Shown here: positions 5,626 through 15,723 of the stretch, in pieces
Position numbering within the stretch: position 1 is the first letter of the stretch
Layout of the letters: the number at the start of each line of letters is the position of its first letter
Origin: a virus
IMG/VR virus record: IMGVR_UViG_3300020021_000046
Span: 1-25,689 of that record
Reading direction: 5' to 3' (one strand)
DNA: 25,689 nucleotides
Translations under genes and position numbers: made by a program
Notes under the pieces: model-generated
The model's input: the letters and a program-made list of their open reading frames with translations, nothing else
Databases searched by the model: none
What the model was told of the DNA's origin: nothing

Positions 5626-5928
5626 ATGGCACTGAAGACGATCGAACACAAGGCCGAGAAGGGCCGCACCCTCACCCTCGACGAGGTGGCCGCATTCGTA
5701 GACGACGCCCGCCGCTCCGGCGCGACCGGCACCGAGGTCGTCAGCGTGACCGCATCCTGGCGCGGCAAGATCCAGGGGCTCGCCGCCGACGTCCAGGCCA
5801 CCGTCGGAAGCGCCGAGTCCGGGTCGATCGCCGTCGATCCGGGCGCGGAGTCGCGGACGGCCGATGTTCAGCCCTGGACGCCAGCCCAGAAGGACCACTG
5901 GAACCAGACCGGGATCCCCCCGCGCTGA
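5626..5928 (+). CDS. Hypothetical protein, 100 aa
   Basis: ATG four nucleotides after the preceding stop; no strong Shine-Dalgarno, so translation may depend on re-initiation. It reads MALKTIEHKAEKGRTLTLDE, then a helix (VAAFVDDARRSGATG) and a strand VVSVTASWRGKIQGL, followed by a low-complexity acidic tail. The alpha/beta first half resembles short uncharacterised Streptomyces proteins; no family named. The stop overlaps the next ATG. Confidence 0.65.
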   Translation: MALKTIEHKAEKGRTLTLDEVAAFVDDARRSGATGTEVVSVTASWRGKIQGLAADVQATVGSAESGSIAVDPGAESRTADVQPWTPAQKDHWNQTGIPPR

Positions 5929-6146
5929 TGCCGCGCCCCGACCCCCCGCTGCCCGGCCTCGCCACGGAGGGGCTGGCGGCGGACCGGGCGGTCGTCACCT
6001 GTCGGGAGTGCGAGAGGCCGCTCACGGGCCGGGTGGCGCGGTTGAGGGGCTGGGGTGACGAGTGCGCCCACAAGCTCGGGATGCGGGACGTGCGCGGCGT
6101 CGGCAGGTTCGAGGTGGAGCAGGAGGGGTTGTTCGGGGAGAGCTAG
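5928..6146 (+). CDS. DUF6011-like Cys-motif protein, 72 aa
   Basis: ATGA overlap fixes the start. The core reads VTCRECERPLTGRVARLRGWGDECAHKL, abbreviated here as C-x2-C-x2-P-L ... G-W-G-x2-C. This is the single-ribbon pattern of DUF6011-type proteins (C-x2-C-G-R-x-L ... G-x-G-x2-C), one of the commonest small actinophage motifs. A structural zinc site is expected. Its stop codon (6144-6146) lies inside the left arm of the inverted repeat at 6143, so the early operon ends exactly at that element. Confidence 0.7.
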   Translation: MPRPDPPLPGLATEGLAADRAVVTCRECERPLTGRVARLRGWGDECAHKLGMRDVRGVGRFEVEQEGLFGES

Positions 6147-6171
6147 CGCATAACGTTCCCTTATGCGCTAG
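6143..6171. promoter_or_regulatory. Perfect inverted repeat, candidate operator
   Basis: CTAGCGCATAA (6143-6153) and its exact reverse complement TTATGCGCTAG (6161-6171), with a 7-nt spacer. The centre-to-centre distance of 18 bp is about two helical turns, as expected for a dimeric repressor. The right arm overlaps the TAGAAT -10 box (6169-6174). It sits between the early cassette and the lysogeny genes. The regulator is unknown; the XRE protein at 5104 is one candidate. As RNA it could also form an AT-richer hairpin, but there is no U-tract. Confidence 0.6.
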
Positions 6172-6174
6172 AAT
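6169..6174 (+). promoter_or_regulatory. -10 box TAGAAT, likely leaderless promoter
   Basis: TAGAAT matches the actinobacterial TANNNT consensus. It is followed by 6 nt and then ATG at 6181, the spacing seen for leaderless transcripts in Streptomyces. No convincing -35 hexamer lies 17-18 nt upstream. No Shine-Dalgarno precedes the ATG, which fits a leaderless start. Confidence 0.5.
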
Positions 6175-6180
6175 TTGAAG

Positions 6181-6253
6181 ATGAATCAGGCGCCCGAACC
6201 GCCCCCCCGGAAGCAGCCTCACGCTGGAACAGCTCCGGGTCGAACTCCTTCGC
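6181..6253 (+). other. Probable 5' end of the following gene, separated by a frameshift at a C7 run
   Basis: ATG 6181 opens a frame beginning MNQAPEPPP that leaves the downstream coding frame at seven consecutive C (6202-6208). If one C is skipped or absent, the frame continues as GSSLTLEQLRVELLRLTS and joins the ORF below without a stop. As given, the 6181 frame reads into a Pro/His/Arg-rich shadow and stops near 6330. This is either a sequencing homopolymer error, a mutation, or true +1 slippage. Confidence 0.5.
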
Positions 6254-6586
6254 TTGACGTCGCTCGCCCTCACGGCAGAACTCCCGAAGCCGTCCGTCAT
6301 CAACGACGCGTTCCACCCCATGCCCGGACCTGAGTGGCGGGTGTCCCATCCCTGCGAGGTCGGGGAGCCGGAGGAGCACCGCGAGTACGGAGTCAGGGTC
6401 CTCAGCCACGACGACGTTGCCAACGTCGTCTACTACTCCACGCCCGGCCACATGCCGGGAGACTTCGCGGCAGCGACGACCACGGAGATCAGGCAGTTCG
6501 CCCTGTCGCTGCTGGCGGCCTGCAACGAGTCGGAGGCGCGCAGCGGAGGCGTCTCCCATCTCGCGAACCGCAGGCGGTCGGCATGA
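6254..6586 (+). CDS. Hypothetical protein upstream of integrase (probably N-terminally incomplete)
   Basis: As sequenced, the only in-frame start is a TTG at 6254 with no Shine-Dalgarno, giving 110 aa. Coding-like sequence (SLTLEQLRVELLRLTS) continues upstream in the same frame to a stop at 6182, which supports a true start at ATG 6181 across the C7 run (about 134 aa). The product reads PEWRVSHPCEVGEPEEHREY and GVRVLSHDDVANVVYYSTPG, then a helix (EIRQFALSLLAACNESEARS). It looks like a small alpha/beta protein with no family I recognise. Its stop overlaps the integrase ATG (ATGA), so the two genes are probably one operon under the operator-like repeat. Confidence 0.6.
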   Translation: MTSLALTAELPKPSVINDAFHPMPGPEWRVSHPCEVGEPEEHREYGVRVLSHDDVANVVYYSTPGHMPGDFAAATTTEIRQFALSLLAACNESEARSGGVSHLANRRRSA

Positions 6587-7728
6587 CCGAGACGCCCGGC
6601 CTTCCCGCCCCCCGAACTGGCCAGCCGATCGCGCTGCCCGGCTCGGACCTGTTCGAGACAGTCCGCCGCAAACTCGCCGACGACCTCGGCCGCGTCCAGG
6701 TCGGCCGCAGCGGGCAGGAGCGCACCTACCGGCCCCGCGCCGAACTGCTCGCCGAAGCCGTCACCGCTGATGCCTGGGTGATGATCCTCGACTGGCTGTC
6801 CTCCACCCGGCGCGGCAGCGTCCAGACCAAGCGCAACTACGTGGACGACATCCGCCGCGTCTGGGCCGCCTACGCCATCGAACTCGGGCACGAACGGTTC
6901 GCCCTCGGGATCTTTACCCCCGACCACATCCGGGCCTGGCGCATCCGCATGGAAGCCAACGAGGCACCGCCCACCACGATCAGCCGCTACCTCAACACCC
7001 TGTCCTCGCTGCACACCTACGCTGCCGAGAAGATCGACCTGCCCCGGAACCCCGTCACCCAGGACGACCGGCCCAAGGTCGACAAGGGCAACACCTCGAC
7101 GTCGACCCCCGTGCTGGAGGTGGAGGAGATCCAAGCCGTCGGCGCTGCCGCACAGAACGAGTTCGACCTGCTCGTGGTCTCCCTGCTGTACACGCTCGCC
7201 GGCCGGGTCTCCGAGATGTGCGCGGCAGACATCACGAACCGGATCGAGCGCGGACGCCGCAGCTTCCTCGACGTCACTCGCAAGGAGCACAAGGAGCGCG
7301 TCCTGCCGCTGCCGCTCACCGTCGCCGAGATGCTCGACGCGCACACGGCGGGTCGGACAGAGGGGCCTCTGCTGCTGGACGCCGACGGCCAGCGGCTCGA
7401 CCGGCACGACGTCGCCCGGCTCCTCACCCGCCTTGGGCGTAAGGCACGGGTGCTCACCTGCTCGGACATCGACGGACCCGCCAAGCACACCTTCACCAAG
7501 TGCCGGCGCTGCCGGAAGCTGACCCCGCACGTTCTCCGGGCCAGTCGCATCACTCACATGCTTGACGCCGGGGAGCCGCTCGCTGAGGTACAGGCGTTCG
7601 CCGACCACGACAACCCGGCCACGACCGTCGGCTACTGGAACCGCCGCAAGAAGGGCGAGCGGAACATGGCCCACGTCGACGCCGCCGAAGCTGTGTTCGC
7701 TGACGTGGTGTCGAAGTTCCGGACCTGA
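6583..7728 (+). CDS. int: Tyrosine-family site-specific integrase
   Basis: 381 aa from ATG 6583 (ATGA overlap). An N-terminal arm region is followed by a SAM-like core-binding domain (about residues 60-165, with SVQTKRNYVDDIRRVWAAYA) and the catalytic domain from about 180. The full active set is visible: R208 (AGRVSE), K234 (VTRKEHKERVLPL), H316 and R319 (PHVLRAS), H342 (DHDNPATT) and nucleophile Y351 (VGYW), with the usual 9-residue His-to-Tyr spacing. Box II uses LRAS instead of the common LRHS. An unusual insertion carries C293, H302, C307 and C310, a possible zinc knuckle. It should recombine attP with a chromosomal attB. No excisionase is recognised nearby with certainty. Confidence 0.92.
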   Translation: MTETPGLPAPRTGQPIALPGSDLFETVRRKLADDLGRVQVGRSGQERTYRPRAELLAEAVTADAWVMILDWLSSTRRGSVQTKRNYVDDIRRVWAAYAIELGHERFALGIFTPDHIRAWRIRMEANEAPPTTISRYLNTLSSLHTYAAEKIDLPRNPVTQDDRPKVDKGNTSTSTPVLEVEEIQAVGAAAQNEFDLLVVSLLYTLAGRVSEMCAADITNRIERGRRSFLDVTRKEHKERVLPLPLTVAEMLDAHTAGRTEGPLLLDADGQRLDRHDVARLLTRLGRKARVLTCSDIDGPAKHTFTKCRRCRKLTPHVLRASRITHMLDAGEPLAEVQAFADHDNPATTVGYWNRRKKGERNMAHVDAAEAVFADVVSKFRT

Positions 7729-15688: not shown

Positions 15689-15723
15689 GCTGGTGCCGCC
15701 CGAAGGCTCCGGGCGGCACCAGC
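15689..15723 (+). terminator. Strong hairpin after major capsid gene
   Basis: Perfect 14-bp inverted repeat, GCTGGTGCCGCCCG (15689-15702) and CGGGCGGCACCAGC (15710-15723), 7-nt loop, beginning 13 nt past the capsid stop. It probably terminates a fraction of transcripts or protects the capsid mRNA, lowering expression of the connector genes. Confidence 0.75.

Follow-up and report, generated by a model that had tools for sequence, protein, structure and literature searches.

The window analysed here comprises the 25,689 bases of a virus record, whose relatives were found in Streptomycetaceae genomes, plasmids and virus contigs. A 29-bp palindrome in it joins the end of an upstream gene to an operon composed of ORF1 and a tyrosine recombinase gene, YR-A (Table 1). 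The sequence-only reading had described a perfect 11-bp inverted repeat that overlaps the upstream stop codon and a TAGAAT element, 6 nt before an ATG at 6181 and with no Shine-Dalgarno sequence. All of these features are seen, and the two arms are fully complementary. The anatomy is that of a dif/lox-like core, with inverted arms of ~11 bp on both sides of an asymmetric centre of 6-8 nt, which has 7 nt in the phages. An ORF of 382 codons without a family follows directly after the recombinase gene; its homologue in genome G002 (126292-126957, 48% identity) is encoded on the opposite strand and at the opposite side of the site.

Table 1. Features at the palindrome and elsewhere in the window (window coordinates)
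Feature	Position	Strand	Remarks
Upstream gene, Pfam DUF6011	5928..6146	+	stop codon in left arm
29-bp dyad	6143..6171		CTAGCGCATAA / CGTTCCC / TTATGCGCTAG; arms 100% complementary
Left arm CTAGCGCATAA	6143..6153	+	holds stop TAG (6144-6146) of upstream gene
Asymmetric centre CGTTCCC, 7 nt	6154..6160	+	proposed strand-exchange overlap
Right arm TTATGCGCTAG	6161..6171	+	degenerate at many loci, chiefly ones with other recombinases
-10 element TAGAAT of leaderless promoter	6169..6174	+	overlaps right arm
ORF1, first gene of recombinase operon	6181..6583	+	frame broken in window
C7 run	6202..6208		frame break of ORF1
Tyrosine recombinase YR-A	6583..7728	+	PF00589, PF02899
ORF of 382 aa	7562..8710		no family
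Other perfect inverted repeat	15690..15722		G+C-rich

The inverted repeat by itself is mildly unusual. Perfect inverted repeats of 11 bp or more, separated by 3-12 nt, occur at just two distinct places in the window; counted as four registers, they compare with a mean of 0.3 and a maximum of 3 in 20 first-order Markov simulations. No further copies of the arms were found in the window with up to two mismatches allowed. It is the conservation of the repeat that makes it significant. A scan of viral contigs for exact 10-nt arms separated by any 4-10 nt retrieved 17 IMG/VR contigs, of which 15 carry the identical asymmetric spacer CGTTCCC and one (L012) carries CGTTTCC; the last, L013, has the spacer AGTGACT and was treated as unrelated and excluded from later comparisons. 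The sequence-only reading had made its proposal depend on conservation of the repeat in related phages, and the 27-mer TAGCGCATAA-CGTTCCC-TTATGCGCTA, asymmetric spacer included, is indeed present in 15 contigs. A YR-A relative lies near it in 14 of them, and the remaining contig (L002) stops 70 nt past the site. Among the 17 loci with a YR-A relative, the window counted, 14 have the site with at most one change at 0.3-1.0 kb upstream of the recombinase match. The site of L031 has three changes, and that of L034, whose recombinase is 57% identical, has six, which alter the outer arms on both sides; these arms, TTCCGCATAA / TTATGCGGAT, still pair at 9 of 10 positions. In L032, no site was found in its mere 65 nt of upstream DNA.

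The two arms are conserved to different degrees. Exact searches retrieved 48 contigs with the left arm plus spacer and 15 with the right arm plus spacer, and all of the latter have a perfect left arm. A search of 392 Streptomyces genomes allowing up to two mismatches found the site at nine places in eight genomes, with zero mismatches in the left arm, whereas the right arm across loci mostly retains GCGC and varies in its inner bases. Since left-arm mismatches are absent across these searches, the left arm is the invariant part. Of 25 genomes or records, 24 have the site in a single place and the L032 record has none. The left half-site is single in 10 of 11 genomes; the other genome, G391, carries it twice, at a distance of 89,881 bp, within a duplication that spans at least 13.4 kb and may represent a tandem element or an assembly effect. 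A blastn search of the region against GenBank phages gave no match, and no description of the site was found in the titles and abstract openings of the literature searched. An RNA hairpin with a conserved loop was also considered and rejected, because the varying right arm breaks the pairing in many loci, as judged by eye, and because the expected start of the leaderless transcript falls after the dyad.

The leaderless promoter under the palindrome is conserved as well. Of 18 class A phage loci, 17 have the pattern TANNNT-N5-7-ATG at the site's right edge, L031 being the lone exception, and none of 3492 random 45-nt pieces of those loci has it; L008, a duplicate of L005, was dropped from this count and from the flank and pair comparisons. 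The box overlaps the right arm in 11 of the 17 loci and starts 8-9 nt further in five; in the remaining one, L015, the recombinase gene is located on the opposite side and the spacer runs in the reverse direction with respect to this gene. Leaderless mRNAs are common in Streptomyces, with 264 in S. coelicolor (PMC4681348). The first operon gene behind the promoter is not always identical across class A loci. In the window, the reading frame from the leaderless ATG has only 50 codons, whereas its homologue in L006 is open over 134; compared with L006, the frame breaks 9 codons in, at the C7 run, which may reflect a sequencing error, a natural mutation or a frameshift signal. The stretch 6254-6583 has a 74% identical relative in L019. 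The sequence-only reading had placed the promoter ahead of a gene pair ending in the integrase, and the arrangement of promoter, palindrome and gene pair ending in a tyrosine recombinase stands, although the name of integrase is not supported, as discussed below. The dyad thus lies over the promoter, as recognised by its consensus, of the operon that it could control, and because this overlap is conserved, binding at the site probably affects the ORF1-YR operon.

The same position gave rise to the idea of an operator, in which a dimer of a phage or element regulator on the palindrome would repress the ORF1-YR promoter without any recombination. Besides the conserved promoter, this idea draws on the presence of GntR or HTH regulator genes in the wider surroundings of some sites and on a second dyad, CTCGATAACATGCCATATCGCGGGC, in many loci with another tyrosine recombinase, YR-B. 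In 10 of the 17 loci read, a TANAAT box (TACAAT or TAAAAT) and an ATG come after this dyad, the same layout as at the site. This second dyad, counted at 19 or more matches of 25, occurs in 28 of 47 loci, yet in only 2 of 13 close YR-A loci. It lies 44-45 bp or more to the right of the site in L149, L091, L012, L164 and others and, in many loci, ahead of an operon of ORF1' and YR-B. It mostly, not exclusively, accompanies YR-B, for whose family it may serve as the core site. Against an operator without recombination stand the conserved asymmetric spacer and the loci L155, L139 and L092, in which the nearest recombinase gene reads towards the site, so that the site cannot be the operator of its promoter.

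YR-A belongs to the tyrosine recombinases: it matches PF00589, and an alignment of 19 homologues, 11 of them plasmid-borne, shows R208, K237, H316, R319, H342 and Y351 to be invariant in all. Its profile was compared with solved sequences, of which eight matched at E <= 0.001, and an XerC-like protein (4a8e), XerA (5hxy) and XerD (1a0p) came before IntI4 and Int; the second-best match carries the label of another protein (9i5v, RaiA). The best PHROG match is named 'integrase'. The protein matches 119 phage records, all at less than 60% identity and, among the 30 matches listed, at 28-33%. At a profile cut-off of E <= 1e-4, 52 of 59 loci have a site-specific recombinase match that starts no more than 2 kb from the site, to YR-A or its remote forms (of which one has a measured identity of 32%), to YR-B (24-28% identical to YR-A) or to a small serine resolvase; a few matches are weak (26-46 bits), and the other seven loci have little flank or no match. 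Serine resolvase matches replace the tyrosine recombinase near the site in L086 (G391), L090 (G141), L144, L151 and L152. The loci with YR-B or a serine resolvase retain the left arm and spacer exactly; it was with an exact search for these elements that the loci had been retrieved. Within a few kb of the recombinase, Ku-like proteins are encoded at L067:11233-12129 and L070:7656-8957, which may point to end joining in phage circularisation. TROVE (Ro60-like) proteins are encoded near the site at L070:12329-13969 and L091:11521-13158.

YR-A homologues are also present on plasmids of Streptomycetaceae, at 37-52% identity in 11 sequences and at 66% in one more. We read 15 plasmid loci, from 10 circular and 5 linear records. 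A dyad of the form arm-TAA-6/7 nt-TTA-arm was found in seven of them, within 100 nt upstream of the recombinase gene (in L181, of ORF1), and in each it is the sole such site apart from register variants. The same design appeared in 23 of 3000 simulated 550-nt pieces. The centre has 6 nt in six plasmid dyads and 7 nt in one, and six of the seven records are circular. Examples are AGCGCATAA-CGTGAA-TTATGCGTT in L053, GCCTCTTAA-CGTGAA-TTATGAGGC in L054 (pFP3), GCCTCTTAA-TCTGAA-TTAAGAGGC in L055 and AACACATAA-CGTGTG-TTAAGTGTC in L057 (pCQ4); the further ones are in L181, L183 and L185. The plasmid arms have diverged from the phage arms, yet they are still paired. In the remaining 8 of the 15 loci, no arm-TAA-N6/7-TTA-arm dyad was found. 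When the seven dyad loci and L182 were checked for the promoter, TANNNT stood 6-8 nt ahead of the annotated start in 7 of 8, and in L185 it lies apart from the dyad.

A comparison of the DNA on both sides of the site suggests that phages have swapped genome parts exactly there. In 52 of 57 loci, the rest lacking 300 nt on both sides, we compared 300 nt on either side, taking flanks as similar when they are alike up to within 60 nt of the site edge; L158, a duplicate of L149, was dropped from this strict test and from the comparison of pair labels. There are 16 pairs of loci similar on the left and 31 similar on the right, but none similar on both sides. The left flanks of L006 and L138, for example, are 91% identical over 259 nt, and left flanks differ between loci with a common right flank. 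At eight control positions between -1500 and +2000, a fraction of 0.50-1.00 of left-similar pairs are also right-similar, three left-hand points resting on just 5, 1 and 2 pairs. The 16 left-similar pairs are not independent, as they fall into six groups and one group of five loci yields 10 of them. Under looser criteria, 6 of 35 left-similar pairs are also right-similar, one of these involving a duplicate locus. The right arm differs in 15 of the 16 pairs. By score-based labels, the recombinase subclass differs in 13 of the 16 and the broad class (YR-A, YR-B or resolvase) in nine, with one more pair unassigned. Flank similarity is therefore one-sided at the site and the right arms differ, which places the change of partner at the site and, in these pairs, on the left-hand side of the variable right arm. 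Read in this way, the site is a recombination joint between phage genomes, at the position expected for strand exchange by a tyrosine recombinase. Dimers that arise by homologous recombination anywhere and are then resolved at the site would leave an identical trace.

The change of flank partners at the site, together with the recombinases reading towards it, led us to reject a pure operator, which we regard as unlikely. With respect to the switch that the sequence-only reading had proposed, its place over a conserved promoter holds, but regulation does not appear to be the primary function in view of the core-site anatomy, the paired but diverged plasmid arms and the recombination joint; judged by position, the operator role of the site would be secondary. 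A joint could also arise at a passive linker, that is, at a short sequence conserved for other reasons, such as a promoter and gene ends, where phage modules become joined by homologous recombination. These phages are generally mosaic, the upstream gene has its stop codon within an arm in the window, and genes end inside the site, as judged by eye, also in L078, L079 and L081. A linker of this kind does not account for the fixed centre of the dyad, for the same design in a different sequence beside YR homologues on plasmids or for the closeness of a recombinase match in most loci, and we consider it improbable.

Another candidate is the attP core of a prophage integrase, by which the phage would be inserted at a matching chromosomal attB. 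The tyrosine recombinase with an adjoining dyad fits this idea, as do the phage-like genes on one side of the site in G001, with host-like genes from ~5 kb on the other. No other integrase was found by PF00589 or PF00239 in 6 of 10 virus records, an absence that says little, since the integrase of G002 was itself missed by PF00589. A second recombinase match is present in G008, G017 (a short frame), G018 and G020. The sequence-only reading had asked for further copies of the repeat, and CGCATAACGTTC, the left half-site, occurs in the 11 genomes solely at the site, or at its duplicate in G391, and thus has no partner. The right half-site is found at the site in seven of these genomes and is absent in four with a degenerate right arm; one extra copy, in contig 1 of G003, lacks the first base of the spacer and the left arm. 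In G002, an 85-kb prophage occupies positions 51712-136928 of contig 8 in bacA/uppP. Its ends are marked by an 87-bp repeat in bacA at 51712 and 136842, 85,130 bp apart, and a PHROG-1 integrase of its own (51807-53198) lies by the repeat, whereas the site is intact ~9.5 kb inside. No attL/attR halves were thus found among the 11 genomes, and the one delimited prophage has its borders elsewhere; direct repeats fixed no prophage borders in G001, G069, G408 or G394. Since half-site partners are missing in the 11 genomes and G002 is inserted at another att site, the attP reading was rejected and is very unlikely. The naming of YR-A as the integrase of a lysogeny switch is likewise not supported, because in this prophage the site is intact and a different integrase lies at the real att site.

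In our judgement, the palindrome is probably the core (crossover) site for the apparently Xer-like tyrosine recombinase whose gene lies 0.4 kb downstream. The anatomy of the site, its conservation, its linkage to YR genes, the leaderless promoter, the joint and the lack of attP use in the genomes examined can all be read from the sequences. Two recombinase protomers are predicted to bind the inverted arms, and YR-A would exchange strands in the 7-nt centre. Its role would be intermolecular recombination and the resolution of multimers of the circular phage or plasmid genome, similar to Cre/lox of P1 and XerA/dif, and chromosomal insertion would not be the likely job of the site. Because the leaderless ORF1-YR promoter and the site overlap, recombinase bound there should also repress its own expression, so that the operon is probably autoregulated.

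Three known systems can be compared with the proposed core site. The lambda-type attP/Int system has a tyrosine recombinase beside the core site in a temperate phage, an arrangement shared by our site, but the latter shows no use for insertion in the delimited prophage and no half-site partners in the 11 genomes. The Cre/lox system of phage P1 has perfect inverted arms, an asymmetric centre and one recombinase gene on a phage/plasmid replicon, all of which recur here. Unlike in Cre/lox, however, Cre is absent from the solved relatives of YR-A at E <= 0.001, the centre has 7 nt rather than the 8 nt of lox, and at least one carrier (G002) is an integrated prophage. The motifs GCGCATAA and TTATG resemble E. 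coli dif. The Xer/dif systems (XerA/dif with a single recombinase; XerCD/dif, cer and psi) share two arms of ~11 bp, a short asymmetric centre, one site per replicon and, as far as the solved relatives indicate, an Xer-like recombinase. In contrast to them, the recombinase gene here lies next to the site on a mobile element, the site overlaps the recombinase promoter, the phage centre has 7 nt and the dyad is perfect in most class A loci. In Xer/dif, a 28-bp dyad is bound by tyrosine recombinases (PMC7901474).

Some observations count against the preferred core-site reading. A site strictly specific for YR-A fails to predict that the left arm and spacer are kept in the loci with YR-B or a resolvase. 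A YR-A encoded by other elements, or else a shared factor, may still act on this half. A self-resolution site has no need of the same spacer in different phages, and homologous recombination in a short conserved 'linker' would form a joint alike. The plasmid loci without a dyad (8 of 15), the reversed spacer of L015 and the loss of the promoter in L031 also speak against it. A wider proposal, possible though somewhat doubtful, is that the invariant half-site TAGCGCATAACGTTCCC would be a docking joint common to Streptomyces phages, at which modules of the two YR families and serine resolvases, plus genome parts beyond them, would be swapped by site-specific exchange in the 7-nt centre, thereby making it a hot spot of phage shuffling.

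Collectively, a plausible 'operator' becomes a testable recombination system that would link Streptomyces phages and plasmids, and it offers a mechanism for mosaicism at one defined base-pair position. The dose of the recombinase would be coupled to the occupancy of its own site. If active, the recombinase and its 29-bp site would also provide a compact Cre/lox-like tool for actinomycetes.
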